Shown one piece after another: positions 6,934 to 13,787 of a stretch of DNA of 25,789 nt. The notes below the pieces were generated by a model that was not told where the DNA came from, did not search any database, and saw only the letters and a list, made by a program, of their open reading frames with translations. The translations under genes and the position numbers were made by a program. This DNA comes from a virus: IMG/VR virus record IMGVR_UViG_3300040801_003173, positions 1 to 25,789 of that record, one strand, 5' to 3'. Within the stretch, counting starts at the first letter, position 1. Each line of letters starts with the position of its first letter.

Positions 6934-9126
6934 CTATTCTTCATCACTAAATACAGCTTTTAGCACTGATCGGCAGTTAACATGGCTGGGGGGGTACGGA
7001 TAAGCTTTATTTGTCTCAGGATCAATAAAATCTTCATCAATATTTACAATTTTTCCATGGAGCCGGTTACATATATCAGAAGTCCTATCATCAAGAGCTG
7101 CATCCCATTGTTTCCTTTGTACGCCAACGTCTTTATAAGATAACATCTTGCTCTCGTTAACAAACCTTGTACTTTCTGTTCTTGCTATACGCACAGCTTG
7201 AGTATTCTCAGCTTTACCAAAAATATCTTTTATATCCTCAGTTATCTCTTTTTTAGTCTTGCCAGATGATACTCCTTCTTCTACTTTACTAAGTATCTCA
7301 CTCTGTAATTCTTTTGTAGCACCTTTAATACCATGCCATTTTTTGCCATTTATAAGATAACCGTTAAGCTCCTGGCCTTCAAACTTTTTAAGTTTATCAT
7401 CATGCTGAGAAGTAAACCCGACATCTAAGTCAAGCTCCTGTTCAACCGACTGGATTCCTTCATTCATAGAACGTCGGATTATTCTTCTCAAATTTCGTAT
7501 AAATCCTTGTGAATTTACTGTGTTCATAAGATTCTGTAAAAATTCACCCATTGTCTTTTTATTGTATTCAAGACTTTTATTCAGATCTAATTTATCAAGC
7601 CCACGTATAACACGATTTTCCCATATCTTAAGCTGGTCAAGATAAAATGTTTCATAGGAAGAACTTTCCGCAACCATCTCTTCACCAGGTTCTAAGACAT
7701 CAGCCTTAATCACCATAGACTTCTCTTCAGGTTTTGGCTGCGGAGGTTCTTCTGCAGTATCCTCTTCGGGTTGCACATTCGGGGGTGAACTAAAAGGATT
7801 ATTAACAACAGGAGAGTCTCCCCATTCTACGGGTTCTCTACCTTGTTCAAGTCTATACTCATTTATCGTGAGCATATTAGCCTTAACTTCTCTCTCCCTT
7901 TGTTCAAATCTCATCTTCTCTTCATAAGGGTCCTTAGGGAAGAATTTTAATTTTATATTAGGATTAGGATCCTGTAATAATTCAGGGATGATTTCACGAT
8001 TAATCTTTTTAGCGAATAAATCAAGATATGGCTGTAAAGCGTTCTTTATACTTATACGTTCTTGACCTTCCTGAGTACTACGGTTTACGTTTTCATGGAA
8101 TCCGGCTTCTGCAGGAGAAAGACCAAACACTCCAAAGATTAAATGGAAATACCATTTCTGACCTTCTATCCATTCCATGTCACGCATATTATTTGATAAC
8201 TTGATTAACTCTGCAGCATCAGCTTTCATAAAACCAAACTTATGAGCCTTACCCTTCATGTTCTGCTCCCATTCGTTCTTAATCTTCGTAAGAGATTCCT
8301 TGGAAGCGTTTTGAACCATTAACATTGCGTCAGGAATAGCATTATTTTTAAAGAAATCTTTATTATATCTTGTCGACTCAATCATAAGCTCTATGACCTG
8401 TGCGGCTGATTGAATCGGAGAAAACCCATACACTGAATCTGTACGTTTATTTATCATAAAATAGCATACTTCATCGTTATCAAACCAACGTGGCGCACCT
8501 TGTGGATGCTTGAAACTATACTGATAATAACCTCTATTTCGTCTATAAATGTCAGGGTTTTTAAGAAATGATGCACCGTCAGCTTCAAATATCTGCAATA
8601 GGTTTCTCTGGCCAAAAGGTTTTAACACGAGTTCTTTCCTTTGTTCTATTACTTGACCGGTACCATCTAATATCTCAACAGTACCTTCTTCATATGAATC
8701 CTGAGAATAAGCTTTAACCCATACACCAGCGTCAAGGTCAGCTAAATCTTCAAAAGCTGCACCCATCATGTCACTTATATCATCCTTATTTACGTTCATC
8801 TGTTCAAGAAAGTTAGTAATTTTGTCAACATCTGCCTGATAATTATCTATAGAATCGCCTTCATCATTTTCATCTTTAAGAACTATTTTCCAATCTGTAC
8901 GCTGAATAGCTTTCTTGATAGAACTCTTGACCATCTGTGGCCATGTGTTTTTACCGAACTCTCGTATCTCTGAAGCATTTAATTGCCTAGGTTGACCTAG
9001 TCTTGCAGAATAAAACCACTGAGGATAGACAGGTAACTTATTCTCAGTTACGGGAGTGGATACCAGTTCGCTTACCCTCTCTCTTAGTTTGACCTTCAGG
9101 TCGATAAATGATTTTATGAGATCCAT
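6934..9126 (-). CDS. Portal protein fused to MuF-type C-terminal domain
   Basis: 730 residues. Residues about 20-430 are an HK97-family portal: QPRQLNASEIREFG region, an aromatic core (NRGYYQYSFKHPQG), RTDSVYGFSPIQSA and the late IFGVFGLSPAEAGFHENVNRST stretch. A Pro/Glu-rich linker (about 445-480) leads to a MuF-C domain with ARTESTRFVNESKML, RKQWDAALDDRTSDICNRLHG and the terminal SHVNCRSVLKAVF, the Cys/His pattern of phage Mu F family proteins. Portal-MuF fusions occur in other tailed viruses; the portal forms the DNA channel at one vertex and MuF domains are minor head or injected proteins. No Shine-Dalgarno precedes ATG 9126; a TATA box lies about 40 nt upstream. Confidence 0.9.
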   Translation of the reverse strand: MDLIKSFIDLKVKLRERVSELVSTPVTENKLPVYPQWFYSARLGQPRQLNASEIREFGKNTWPQMVKSSIKKAIQRTDWKIVLKDENDEGDSIDNYQADVDKITNFLEQMNVNKDDISDMMGAAFEDLADLDAGVWVKAYSQDSYEEGTVEILDGTGQVIEQRKELVLKPFGQRNLLQIFEADGASFLKNPDIYRRNRGYYQYSFKHPQGAPRWFDNDEVCYFMINKRTDSVYGFSPIQSAAQVIELMIESTRYNKDFFKNNAIPDAMLMVQNASKESLTKIKNEWEQNMKGKAHKFGFMKADAAELIKLSNNMRDMEWIEGQKWYFHLIFGVFGLSPAEAGFHENVNRSTQEGQERISIKNALQPYLDLFAKKINREIIPELLQDPNPNIKLKFFPKDPYEEKMRFEQREREVKANMLTINEYRLEQGREPVEWGDSPVVNNPFSSPPNVQPEEDTAEEPPQPKPEEKSMVIKADVLEPGEEMVAESSSYETFYLDQLKIWENRVIRGLDKLDLNKSLEYNKKTMGEFLQNLMNTVNSQGFIRNLRRIIRRSMNEGIQSVEQELDLDVGFTSQHDDKLKKFEGQELNGYLINGKKWHGIKGATKELQSEILSKVEEGVSSGKTKKEITEDIKDIFGKAENTQAVRIARTESTRFVNESKMLSYKDVGVQRKQWDAALDDRTSDICNRLHGKIVNIDEDFIDPETNKAYPYPPSHVNCRSVLKAVFSDEE

Positions 9127-10117: not shown

Positions 10118-10380
10118 TGTCTTTCTCCTCCTCCCATACGGGTTTATCTGTGTTTAGCGGACAACCTTTATAGTCGTATGCAGAATCCGCTCTATTTCTG
10201 CAAACAATAACATTCCCATTATCTAATTTATCTATCACCCTCCCTAATCTTGTCTTATAAACTCTACAAAGTGTTTTACCGTTACTTAACTTGACAAGAA
10301 ATTTACATTTCTTAAGTTTTCCGTCTTTTAAATAGTGACAACATCTTCCGCTAACAACGGAGACAAGTTTTAATCTCCAT
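10092..10380 (-). pseudogene. Cys-cluster protein split by a +1 frameshift at UAG
   Basis: ATG 10380 opens MEIKTCLRC and then meets TAG at 10351-10353. Skipping one base continues as SGRCCHYLKD and an 86-codon frame to 10092 with ordered Cys residues (CKFL, LCRVYKTRLGRVID, VCRNR, KGCPLN). The joined 95-residue product has a CxxC-x3-CC cluster like the YkgJ-type metal-chelating family (often CxxCGxCC). The downstream frame has no ATG, GTG or TTG before the CC cluster, so it cannot be made on its own intact. Either programmed +1 frameshifting at a stop followed by C, a real mutation or an assembly error explains this. The start overlaps the end of the HNH gene, with AGAGGTG 6 nt ahead. Confidence 0.65.
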
Positions 10381-10804
10381 TGGCATCACCTCTTTTTTTG
10401 GCTTCCCACCATGCCTTTTTTTTTTCACTTAATATTTTCTTTTGTTCGTCTGATATTGTCCTCTCTCTATATTTCCAAGAATTTTTATTATATGTAAACA
10501 ATCTTCCATCTATTAACATATGACATCTTCTACAAACCTTCATTAAATTATCCCTATTATTATTTTTCTGATTACCATCTTTATGGTGTACTTCTAGTTT
10601 GTATTTCCTTCCACAATTTTCACAACAATTTATATCTTTCATTATTCTCTTCCACTGTCTATGACCATTATTAAATTTAGGATTTTTTTTTCCTATTTTA
10701 CCTATACTTAATAATTTATAAAAACATTCTTGTGAGCAAGTTTGCTTACTCCTTCGTGTAGCTTTGAATTCTTTATTACATATTTTACAATTATTTATTA
10801 CCAT
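10370..10804 (-). CDS. Free-standing HNH endonuclease
   Basis: 144 residues. An N-terminal Cys-type finger (NCKICNKEF ... QTCSQECF) is followed by an HNH nuclease core: CCENCGRKYKLEVHHKDGNQ, then NNNRDNLMKVCRRCHMLID, giving the His-His, Asn and the two zinc-binding CxxC pairs. The C-terminus is basic and helical. This is the layout of mobile, homing-type HNH endonucleases common in tailed viruses. It interrupts an otherwise structural operon, has its own TATA box and a leaderless start at ATG 10804. It overlaps the start of the Cys-cluster gene, which it may have been inserted against. Confidence 0.85.
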   Translation of the reverse strand: MVINNCKICNKEFKATRRSKQTCSQECFYKLLSIGKIGKKNPKFNNGHRQWKRIMKDINCCENCGRKYKLEVHHKDGNQKNNNRDNLMKVCRRCHMLIDGRLFTYNKNSWKYRERTISDEQKKILSEKKKAWWEAKKRGDANGD

Positions 10805-10882: not shown

Positions 10883-11119
10883 TTATTCATCATCACCTAT
10901 ATAAGTATATACAAATATCTTAAATCTATGTTTTCGTTTATGGTTCATTTTTTCAGTCATAACCGTTGTACTATATATGCCTTGCCTCTTTGAAACATTC
11001 TTGGTAAGACACCGACATACAACGCTCCGGCTTAAGTTAAGTTTGTTTGATATTTGTTCTGCAGAAAAAAACTTACCTTTGTTCTTCTCTAATAATTCAA
11101 TTATATCACGTGCACCCAT
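10883..11119 (-). CDS. Small helix-turn-helix DNA-binding protein
   Basis: 78 residues. Residues 4-40 read as a winged/tri-helical HTH: DIIELLEKNKGKFFSAEQIS then NKLNLSRSVVCRCL as the recognition helix. The basic C-terminus (NHKRKHRFKIFVYTYI) fits a wing. Its ATG overlaps the terminase stop (TAATG), so it is translationally coupled to the large terminase; an alternative GTG 9 nt upstream is less likely. It probably regulates a nearby promoter, perhaps the inverted repeat at 10815-10860. Confidence 0.75.
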   Translation of the reverse strand: MGARDIIELLEKNKGKFFSAEQISNKLNLSRSVVCRCLTKNVSKRQGIYSTTVMTEKMNHKRKHRFKIFVYTYIGDDE

Positions 11120-13371
11120 TATCCCCACAATACCTCAGCATCAGTATCCTTTATCTCAAATATCATACGCATCATAAGAACATCAGCCCAGTCAGGTGAC
11201 CTATTTATTAGTTCCTTTATCAGCTCTTTTTTTATAATTCTCTTCTTTTTCTCGTCATCATCTATCTTATCACGTTTGATTACGCTTAATTCTTCAATTA
11301 TCTCCTGTTTAACAAGAGGATCGTTGCATTCAATAAATATAAGCCGTTTATTGACTAACTCTGCAAGTTTAAAATAACATTCACTTCTAAGATTAGTGTA
11401 TTCTTCCTTATTTATGGCCGAGCTTCCACCATGAAATTCTGCAATATCTTCCATGTAACTTTCAAGGTAACTGCCTAAACCGTCAGAATCTACAACAATA
11501 TGGCTTCTGGAAACTTTATGCTTAAAAGATAACTGCTTAAGGTCTTGCTCAATCTCTTTGCCCCGAGCCTTCTCTTTGACTAGGGGAAACTTTACACGTA
11601 ACCCCGACCAAACACCGCAGATAAACTTATCTCTTCCCTGCATGGCTAAATCGCTTGTTATATAGCTTTCTCCTTTATCAACGTAATCATTAGTGAATAA
11701 GTCAGTAATAGCATCATAATCCATTAATATAGCAGGATCATCGTCATAGTTCCAGTTACCGTAATAAAGACGTTCTTTTGATACCTTGTCAAGCTTCTGT
11801 AGCTGTTTCTCATAATTTGAGTCAATATAAGGATTATCCTGGACCTTTGCAGGAATGAATATCTTACCATCTTTCTCTTGTTTATTTTCCCATGGCTTAT
11901 AAAATTCCAAGAATAACCAGTTTTTAGCAGGATTAGAAGTATAAAGAGATTTAGGGATTATTCCGAAATCATCATTCTTATATCTTAGCCTGGACTGAAT
12001 CACGTTCTTAGCTTTAACTGATACCTGAGAAGCCTCGTCTATAAAACAACCTGTATATTCTGTACTTCCTAATGAATCAAACTCAGGGTCACTTGGATAA
12101 TGAAACAGGTCCTTAAGATATATCTCGCTACCGTTATTAAATCTTACTACTCCAGATTGCTGATTATAACGATAATCTCTGCCAGATTGTAACTTAAACG
12201 TTTTACACACGTCAAATAATGAAAGAAGGGTAGTCTCCTTAAGAGTCTTAAGAACAGCTCTTCCCATTAACCACCGAGTTCCAGGATATTTCAAACAAGA
12301 AGTTACAAGCCAGATACAACCTAGCCAAGATTTCCCGCTATTATGGGTAATTATATTATTTCTAGTGATAATATAATTATGGTTATCCTGTACATTTAAA
12401 TCATAAACTTCACAAGAACCTTTATAAAATTTAATTTCTGTAACTTCGTTAATGTTTAATTCACGTGCTTCCAGGTTCTTTTTAGAATTACGTCTTTTAT
12501 TGTGACATCTTTGACACCATATTCTTCTGCAAGCATCTTCCTGGTATATATTCTGGGTTTGAATTTCTTTCTTATTTCTATAATATCTTTCTCTTTTAGT
12601 TTGCTGTAACCGTTTTCTTCGCCACGTTTTATTTTCAAGTTTGAAGAATCTCCAGAGTTTTTTATAAAATCCAAATTCTTTCCATTTATCACCGCATGAA
12701 GATAATTCTCTTTTGGTGTTACCCATTCCAGATTTTCTATTACATTGTTCTCCTTGTTCATATCTATATGATTTATCTGTGGCTTGTTCAAAGGATTTGG
12801 AATAAAATGCTGAGCAACAATTCTGTGCATCTTTATCGTTGTAAGCTTCCCATTTAATATAATTGCCGTTCTTAAGTAACCGTGATGATCCTTCGCAGGC
12901 TTCATAATCTTTGTTAAATTTGAACCTTTCCAACCTAAGGTCTTTAATCTTCCTTTGTTGCTTATCATATAACGAGAGCTCCCCATCACAGTTCTCCATT
13001 TTTCCCCTGGCAAATTTAAAGATAGGTTCCCATTTCCCTTTATACAAGAATCTGTGGTTTGCTGTGCATTCAATGTGTTCACCTGATTTGAGTTTTATTT
13101 TGATAAGATTATGTCTATCAACAGCACCACCATATATATATTTTGCGTTTACAGGCTTAAATTCAAGTTTTAAAGAGGATTCATTCAAACTTAGTACAAG
13201 GTCAGAAGTCTTAATATCTTTTATAGGTTTATAACCATTCTCTGTTAATACTAGAGTATGCCCTAAATGACATCCGGCACTGCCACCGTATAATATTTCA
13301 GAGGTTTCACTATCAGTAAGCTTCTCATAAGCTTCAAATTGTTTCGGACTTAGCTTTATATCGACTTCCAT
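11119..13371 (-). CDS. Large terminase subunit interrupted by an intein
   Basis: 750 codons in one frame. After removal of residues 34-344 (the intein) 439 residues remain, a normal large-terminase length. Rejoined, Walker A reads GGSAG-SGKS; Walker B is GCFIDEAS; the nuclease half has YITSDLAMQGRDKF and HIVVDSDGLG as metal-binding acidic motifs. It is the ATPase motor and nuclease that cuts and packages concatemeric DNA into the prohead. ATG 13371 has no Shine-Dalgarno; instead a palindrome lies 11-26 nt upstream. It follows the small subunit by 23 nt, and its stop overlaps the HTH gene start. Confidence 0.92.
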   Translation of the reverse strand: MEVDIKLSPKQFEAYEKLTDSETSEILYGGSAGCHLGHTLVLTENGYKPIKDIKTSDLVLSLNESSLKLEFKPVNAKYIYGGAVDRHNLIKIKLKSGEHIECTANHRFLYKGKWEPIFKFARGKMENCDGELSLYDKQQRKIKDLRLERFKFNKDYEACEGSSRLLKNGNYIKWEAYNDKDAQNCCSAFYSKSFEQATDKSYRYEQGEQCNRKSGMGNTKRELSSCGDKWKEFGFYKKLWRFFKLENKTWRRKRLQQTKRERYYRNKKEIQTQNIYQEDACRRIWCQRCHNKRRNSKKNLEARELNINEVTEIKFYKGSCEVYDLNVQDNHNYIITRNNIITHNSGKSWLGCIWLVTSCLKYPGTRWLMGRAVLKTLKETTLLSLFDVCKTFKLQSGRDYRYNQQSGVVRFNNGSEIYLKDLFHYPSDPEFDSLGSTEYTGCFIDEASQVSVKAKNVIQSRLRYKNDDFGIIPKSLYTSNPAKNWLFLEFYKPWENKQEKDGKIFIPAKVQDNPYIDSNYEKQLQKLDKVSKERLYYGNWNYDDDPAILMDYDAITDLFTNDYVDKGESYITSDLAMQGRDKFICGVWSGLRVKFPLVKEKARGKEIEQDLKQLSFKHKVSRSHIVVDSDGLGSYLESYMEDIAEFHGGSSAINKEEYTNLRSECYFKLAELVNKRLIFIECNDPLVKQEIIEELSVIKRDKIDDDEKKKRIIKKELIKELINRSPDWADVLMMRMIFEIKDTDAEVLWG
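12340..13272 (-). mobile_element. Intein in the terminase Walker A motif
   Basis: 311 codons. It begins with Cys at terminase residue 34 (CHLGHTLVLTENGYKPIKDI, block A), has block B GEHIECTANHRFLYKGKW with the TxxH-type histidine, and ends CEVYDLNVQDNHNYIIT (block F) and IITHN with Ser as +1 extein residue (block G). Splicing would rejoin GSAG to SGKS. The real splicing halves cover about residues 1-95 and 275-311 of the intein. Between them the frame is open but reads as a shadow of the endonuclease encoded in another frame (12456-13082). Confidence 0.9.
12456..13082 (-). CDS. NUMOD4-HNH homing endonuclease nested in intein, other frame
   Basis: 208 codons, offset by one base from the terminase/intein frame. 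Residues ~26-50 are a NUMOD4 domain (GEKWRTVMGSSRYMISNKGR), residues ~84-131 an HNH core (KMHRIVAQHFIPNPLNKPQ, INHIDMNKENNVIENLEWVT), and residues ~158-207 a DNA-binding repeat with an HTH (TRKMLAEEYGVKDVTIKDVI). It ends TWKHVN, exactly where the C-terminal splicing domain resumes in the other frame. Candidate starts are GTG 13082 or TTG 13073, the latter with AGGTGA at fitting distance; the first ~24 codons are shadow of intein block B. It would cleave intein-less terminase genes to drive homing. Confidence 0.88.
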   Translation of the reverse strand: MNTLNAQQTTDSCIKGNGNLSLNLPGEKWRTVMGSSRYMISNKGRLKTLGWKGSNLTKIMKPAKDHHGYLRTAIILNGKLTTIKMHRIVAQHFIPNPLNKPQINHIDMNKENNVIENLEWVTPKENYLHAVINGKNLDFIKNSGDSSNLKIKRGEENGYSKLKEKDIIEIRKKFKPRIYTRKMLAEEYGVKDVTIKDVILKRTWKHVN

Positions 13372-13381
13372 TTACAGTATT

Positions 13382-13397
13382 TGACATAAATATGTCA
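13382..13397. repeat. 16-bp palindrome before large terminase gene
   Basis: TGACATA-AA-TATGTCA, 7-bp perfect arms, spanning the small terminase stop codon and lying where the large terminase ribosome site should be. It pairs with a near-identical palindrome at 13446-13461. Confidence 0.65.
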
Positions 13398-13787
13398 CTT
13401 GCTCTCGGGCGACTTTTGTTTTTTCGCATTAGATTTCTTATTTTTTGACACATCTGTGTCACGAATAAGGTTAATTGTGACCGGAGCCATCTCTCCTGAG
13501 TGTTCTACTTCCTGTCTTTCAACGTAACCACGATGTTTACCTTGCGTCTGAAGATAGAACTTGATAGAACCTAGGTCCCCAACATTTATCTTCTCAGCAA
13601 GCTTAGACTCAGCCACGTCTATTAACTGCTCTTTAGATTGCATCAAAGCATCTTTTATATCAGGATCTTTCTCTACACGTTCATATATTGTTAATCTACT
13701 ACAGCCTACTCTGTTAGCAATTACTGTGATAATCCCGGCGCTACCGTCAATAGCTTTAAGGATTCTCCTCTTAGATATTCTTACCAT
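13395..13787 (-). CDS. Small terminase subunit
   Basis: 130 residues. Residues 6-45 form an HTH (RRILKAIDGSAGIITVIANR, then VGCSRLTIYERV), followed by an oligomerisation helix (IKDALMQSKEQLIDVAESKL) and the stretch LGSIKFYLQTQGKHRGYVER that is typical of small terminases of HK97-like viruses; the tail is Lys-rich. It recognises the packaging site and recruits the large subunit encoded 23 nt downstream. The GGAGG upstream is an unusual 16 nt from ATG 13787; a TATA-like stretch further up suggests its own promoter. Twin palindromes lie in its 3' end. Confidence 0.85.
   Translation of the reverse strand: MVRISKRRILKAIDGSAGIITVIANRVGCSRLTIYERVEKDPDIKDALMQSKEQLIDVAESKLAEKINVGDLGSIKFYLQTQGKHRGYVERQEVEHSGEMAPVTINLIRDTDVSKNKKSNAKKQKSPESK
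13446..13461. repeat. 16-bp palindrome inside small terminase gene
   Basis: TGACACA-TC-TGTGTCA, 7-bp perfect arms, coding for DTDVS in the small terminase. Same TGACAYA/TRTGTCA pattern as the palindrome at 13382-13397, 64 bp away centre to centre (about six helical turns). Confidence 0.65.

Follow-up and report, generated by a model that had tools for sequence, protein, structure and literature searches.

Inteins are taught as carrying their endonuclease as an in-frame domain; the locus described here raises the question of whether one stretch of DNA can encode an intein in one reading frame and its homing endonuclease in another. The locus lies in the virus record IMGVR_UViG_3300040801_003173 (IMG/VR), a single metagenome contig of 25,789 bases that was analysed over its whole length and is called the window below. 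An earlier note on this DNA had placed a NUMOD4-HNH endonuclease between the splicing halves of an intein in the terminase large subunit (TerL), with a frame shift of one base; Pfam models were matched in both frames, and the offset of the endonuclease open reading frame (ORF) is 289 nt from the TerL start, i.e. the +1 frame. The element is very probably a dual-coding mobile intein in the TerL P-loop, with a homing endonuclease gene overprinted in the +1 frame. Its features are listed with window positions.

11119–13371, minus strand: TerL ORF, 750 aa, one ORF without internal stop.
13273–13371, minus strand: TerL N-extein, last residues GGSAG, the first half of the Walker A P-loop.
12340–13272, minus strand: intein in the TerL frame, 311 aa, Cys1 to HN, then Ser (+1) (Pfam, NCBIfam, AlphaFold (AF2)).
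13000–13272, minus strand: N-terminal Hint half, intein aa 1–91, with Cys1 and block B T-A-N-H (predicted local distance difference test (pLDDT) 66–83 over most).
12472–12999, minus strand: overprinted segment, intein aa 92–267, intein frame open, predicted disordered (pLDDT mostly 25–35).
12340–12471, minus strand: C-terminal Hint half, intein aa 268–311, last residues ITHN (pLDDT 62–72; NCBIfam intein_Cterm).
11119–12339, minus strand: TerL C-extein, first residues SGKSW, the second half of the P-loop (Terminase_6N; phrog_979).
12456–13082, minus strand: NUMOD4-HNH endonuclease ORF, 208 aa, +1 frame, TAA stop (Pfam; phrog_59, E 8e-42; I-HmuI (1u3e), E 2e-10).
13079–13084, minus strand: AGGTGA, candidate Shine-Dalgarno sequence, 5 nt before the TTG at 13073.
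13071–13073, minus strand: candidate endonuclease start TTG (alternative: GTG at 13082).
13395–13787, minus strand: terminase small subunit, given as context (phrog_309).

The insertion point in the TerL ATPase is the Walker A P-loop (GGSAG^SGKS), which is unbroken in uninvaded relatives (Bacteroidota phages and other contigs; GGGAGGGKS or GGAAGGGKS). The TerL frame was matched by the Pfam models Intein_splicing (E 1.1e-13, aa 41–344), PT-HINT and Terminase_6N, and both splicing ends were matched by NCBIfam intein_Nterm and intein_Cterm with scores over the curated cut-offs. The residues of a class 1 intein are present (C34 ... H343 N344, then S345, in TerL numbering), as is the block B motif TxxH; C1, T70 and H73 are invariant across five homologues. 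In the AlphaFold model the Hint fold comprises residues 1–91 and 268–311 (pLDDT mostly 62–83) and residues 92–266 are below 50; comparison with the PDB gave the NpuDnaE intein at Z 14.7 and a root mean square deviation of 2.4 over 127 aligned residues, and many other inteins also matched. By these features the TerL insert is a complete class-1-type intein, which would be expected to splice, with a Hint fold predicted to be split by a disordered segment of ∼175 residues. An AT-rich inverted repeat (12348–12379, 88% self-complementary match) is located at the 3′ end of the intein coding region.

HNH endonucleases of phages often sit in group I introns, and the insert might by analogy be removed at the RNA level, with the Hint motifs as relics; no Rfam match was found in the window, the splicing residues and fold are complete and the frame is kept open, so that this explanation retains hardly any probability.

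The +1 frame was matched by NUMOD4 (1.7e-7) and HNH_3 (3.5e-9) of Pfam, and the invariant H and N residues of the family are retained, as for the I-HmuI type; judged by motifs the protein is an HNH homing endonuclease of this type, which would cut at a specific site. No endonuclease domain is fused in the intein frame in the canonical manner: the HNH is in +1 and the intein-frame segment is predicted to be disordered. The endonuclease does not exactly fill the space between the splicing halves, contrary to the earlier note: the ORF shares its first ∼15–20 codons with the N-terminal splicing motif (TANH block), and from its stop codon to the end of the intein there are another 38.7 codons.

The window copy is not alone in this arrangement: relatives with the same frame offset were found in L060, L068, L069 and L071 (L numbers are labels of loci or contigs turned up in the scans). 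L060, obtained in a genome scan with intein motifs, is a contig of a Bacteroidetes metagenome-assembled genome whose TerL has an intein inserted at the P-loop position seen in the window and, again in the +1 frame, a NUMOD4-HNH. A scan with an HNH profile returned 80 loci, among which the host frame is open through the HNH only in L068, L069 and L071; all three are TerL P-loop inteins with the same offset, inserted one codon further along. In the window and these four loci the HNH starts in frame 1 of the intein and has its stop 36.7–38.7 codons short of the intein terminus; the HNHs are 47–53% and the inteins 32–37% identical to those of the window. The nearest relative in the first scan, L003 (52% identical), is free-standing and lies upstream of a TerL gene. 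A scan of viral contigs with the whole TerL-intein protein yielded no matches; none were obtained either when the L071 intein frame was run by tblastn against cultured phages, and thus no cultured member of the window's own family was found here.

Stop expectation in the intein frame was calculated with the HNH protein held fixed and codons drawn from the usage of this phage. Across the HNH ORF 0 stops are present vs 23.9 expected (exact P of none 2.6e-14), which bears out the proposal that this frame is stop-free beyond chance; when synonymous codons of the HNH gene itself were permuted (100,000 trials), the mean was 17.4 intein-frame stops and the minimum 6. The third frame of the HNH ORF has 33 stops, and the corresponding frame of free-standing L003 has 25, which is also the average for L003 and 13 other free relatives. 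An intein-frame stop arises where a T-ending HNH codon precedes a codon starting with AA, AG or GA; stop-forming codon pairs number 0/259 in the five nested copies vs 349/690 in free relatives, and use of T-ending codons at other positions is ordinary (44% and 48%). A sequencing or assembly error, in which two compensating indels shifted an in-frame endonuclease domain, might come to mind for a single metagenome contig; such indels would leave ∼24 stops in the intervening frame where none is seen, the endonuclease has a stop codon of its own, and the homologues L060, L068, L069 and L071 share the offset on independent, unrelated contigs. The zero stops and the codon-pair avoidance together rule out an assembly artefact, and the indel explanation is given practically no weight.

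Constraint was read from position-specific substitution rates in L068, L069 and L071. In the C-terminal splicing half, changes were found mostly at intein codon position 3 (L068/L069: 0.32 vs 0.08), and likewise in the N-terminal splicing half for pairs with L068 (L068/L069: 0.27 vs 0.14 and 0.06), where the L069/L071 pair gave a mixed pattern. Within the overlap, changes in all pairs concentrate at HNH position 3, equivalent to intein position 1 (L068/L069: 0.245 vs 0.109 and 0.076), and most positions are slow in the zone shared by the HNH start and block B. In these three loci, constraint changes frame at the endonuclease borders. The substitution pattern therefore marks the HNH as the selected protein in the overlap, where the intein frame merely stays open, and this agrees with AlphaFold, by which no fold is predicted there. 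Some in-frame residue conservation between the window and L060, partly forced by the HNH frame, could speak for a selected function of the intein-frame product of the overlap, with both frames constrained as proteins; with substitutions concentrated at intein position 1 and no predicted fold, this is very improbable. The dual-coding character claimed in the earlier note is supported by the frame-switching constraint and the codon-pair counts, with one qualification. What the intein frame encodes in the overlap seems to be free of selection except for staying open, and dual coding here would mean that a single piece of DNA gives two proteins, not two functional domains.

The same architecture recurs with a second endonuclease family. 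L030 carries a zinc-finger HNH that is out of frame with the intein around it; this intein interrupts the nuclease motif of TerL (DH^CMDAIRY; P0 about 2e-6). A scan with the L030-type HNH gave 80 loci, 39 of them nested out of frame by the criteria used, for the most part at this position of the nuclease motif; the figure counts L071 again as L149, includes some near-duplicates and takes in the methylase L225. In all, about 36 further contigs conceal an endonuclease of the second family in this manner. In L071 (2197–5418) two inteins interrupt one TerL gene, and each hides an out-of-frame HNH (different families, opposite offsets). The second-family offset is opposite to that of the window in nearly all loci; L191 and L193 differ, which suggests separate insertions. 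Pfam Intein_splicing is matched at E 0.01 or better by 38 of 44 host ORFs of both families, and terminase models match widely. In the GC-rich cases L160, L184 and L222 an open frame by itself lacks significance (P0 0.2–0.3), and they were consequently counted through intein motifs only. Cultured carriers, with the endonuclease unannotated, are Tetrasphaera phage TJE1 and Acinetobacter phage Highwayman (terL); free-standing members adjoin TerL in PAE1, vB_EauM-23, CL2 and Shemara and the small subunit in BP10. Relatives with an in-frame endonuclease, which would make the window a shifted exception, did not appear in either family: by motif search only, every intein-embedded copy found is out of frame, and none of six HNHs with long in-frame flanks in the two scans has an in-frame intein end motif.

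The two families also bear on how the endonuclease is translated. In the window the more probable start is TTG 13073, which has AGGTGA at a spacing of 5, and GTG 13082 is the alternative; nested endonucleases elsewhere have an internal ATG, GTG or TTG (ATG in most), several with good ribosome-binding sites. A ribosomal frameshift from TerL into the +1 frame would produce an intein-N/HNH fusion in place of a free protein, and is favoured by an HNH frame that is open for ∼30 codons overlapping the N-terminal splicing half and by a window start that is GTG or TTG; it is nevertheless unlikely, as the window-family ORFs in L068, L069 and L071 start with ATG shortly after a stop, many second-family ORFs have ATG and a ribosome-binding site (L166 GGAGGTG, L169 AGGAGG, L163 AAGGAG), and the offset differs between the families, which a single shift mechanism does not fit.

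Evidence of movement comes from the second site. TerLs that are 82% identical differ in occupancy there (L068 empty, L071 filled), and the second-family intein of L071/L149 and of L150 is 100% identical over all 831 nt, with adjacent TerL DNA at about 78–82% and downstream DNA less. This identity between diverged flanks indicates recent homing of the sister intein. The +1 residue is Cys at filled second-family sites and Val, Ala or Thr at empty ones, as if the Cys were brought in with the element.

A dual-coding mobile intein would work as follows. Ribosomes starting at the TerL start would read straight through and produce TerL with the intein, whose Hint halves would fold together around the disordered loop of ∼175 residues and splice out, restoring the P-loop. 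Other ribosomes would initiate internally, where the N-terminal splicing half is about to end, and translate the NUMOD4-HNH as a protein of its own; this protein would cut intein-free TerL genes at the P-loop, and repair would then copy the whole intein into the cut TerL. Across the endonuclease, the intein frame would only be kept stop-free and protein-level selection would act on the endonuclease frame.

Several points weigh against this account. All evidence is computational and mostly from metagenome contigs; the 831-nt identity is likewise between metagenome contigs, of different datasets (mis-assembly is unlikely). A close relative of the window element itself was not found in the scans, so that the evidence of recent mobility is that of the sister intein. 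Position-specific rates in L068, L069 and L071 took the place of a strict two-frame ratio of nonsynonymous to synonymous substitution rates (dN/dS), because the relatives of the window are too diverged, and the window endonuclease has no ATG start ahead of NUMOD4.

Minus-strand genes in the window encode the small terminase subunit, TerL, portal (with a Mu-F domain), protease and capsid; one 730-aa ORF (6934–9126) is a portal protein fused to a Mu-F-like domain, and a second, different HNH gene (HNH_3/HNH, 10370–10804) is located downstream of TerL.

HNHs hidden out of frame were described in 2025 in phage DNA methylases (ShiLan domain and Pacc40 gp60 insertion; Arsenault, Gosselin, Gogarten 2025, PMC11855218), and the earlier note, which knew of no described example, holds in part only. 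In the methylases the authors reported no intein or intron features and no splicing domains, and inferred that the extra segment stays in the methylase. The window shares with ShiLan an out-of-frame HNH in a host gene that is open across it, and ShiLan's GTG start, own stop near the insertion end and disjunct distribution suggesting homing are comparable; the HNHs described here differ in lying within an intact intein in an essential motif, the P-loop or, for the second family, the nuclease motif. L225 (2–883; 30% GC contig) encodes a DNA methylase into which an HNH is inserted out of frame, with no Hint motif seen; it is a ShiLan-like element that apparently lies outside actinobacteriophages. 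TerL inteins of mycobacteriophages were reported in the ATPase domain only, two with a recognisable endonuclease domain that cut DNA (PMC5050341). These canonical homing-endonuclease inteins have the TerL host, P-loop site, class-1-type splicing residues and endonuclease between Hint halves in common with the window; theirs is an in-frame intein domain, whereas the window's is a separate ORF in another frame. A comparator with the canonical arrangement is the DNA polymerase-like gene of L026 (3701–5000), which has an intein with an in-frame HNH domain.

In fractured genes, as far as they are outlined in PMC3229294 (citing Dassa et al. 2009), a free endonuclease ORF lies between split-intein halves; the separate ORF between IntN and IntC is alike, with comparable cases in L043, L046 and L049, but fractured genes consist of three ORFs divided by stops and rely on trans-splicing, whereas host and intein in the window are one 750-aa ORF. 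A helicase-like gene was seen as contiguous mini-intein (L047), as split mini-intein with adjoining stop and ATG (L025/L048), and as split inteins with an endonuclease ORF between (L046, L049). Free-standing phage HNH homing endonucleases (I-HmuI-like, PHROG 59) have the same family and residues, and L003 adjoins TerL; unlike the window copy they are not embedded, and their other frames have many stops. In Staphylococcus phage IME1318_01 (L039, 1492–2415), an HNH match lies beneath a gene whose annotation is dUTPase. In open-access literature no description of an intein with the endonuclease out of frame was found. To judge from its citation in PMC11855218 for overlapping frames in actinobacteriophages, a preprint on actinobacteriophage inteins of non-canonical architecture (bioRxiv 10.1101/2025.01.02.630785) may overlap and reduce the novelty. 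Overprinted inteins stand between ShiLan insertions, canonical inteins and fractured genes and belong to none, having one open host-intein frame and a separate endonuclease frame.

We lean towards the wider view that they are a widespread, repeatedly evolved class in phage terminases: a free HNH gene adjacent to TerL would enter a mini-intein out of frame, intein-frame stops would be purged and the unit would home as one; a reappearing stop would divide the host between an IntN and an IntC gene, so that split inteins could arise naturally, a step of which Brochothrix phage BL3 is an apparent fossil. In BL3 (L235, HM144386.1, 727–2607), TerL (gp2) stops within the intein N-half and is followed by an out-of-frame zinc-finger remnant of a hidden HNH; gp3 begins directly after two stops in the same frame and bears the intein C-half and the TerL end. 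The locus resembles an intein with a hidden HNH that has begun to decay into split halves.

For every insertion, some 5–25 intein-frame stops must be lost. With the endonuclease and the splicing activity encoded as two proteins in one DNA segment, evolution, regulation and loss could affect either without the other; overprinted inteins also link free-standing homing genes, canonical inteins and split inteins, which are otherwise treated separately. Annotation pipelines usually call one frame only, and such endonucleases are therefore missed (e.g. terL of TJE1 and Highwayman). The element is a long natural gene overlap in a bacterial virus, with several apparently independent replicates, and is suited to testing how overprinting arises.
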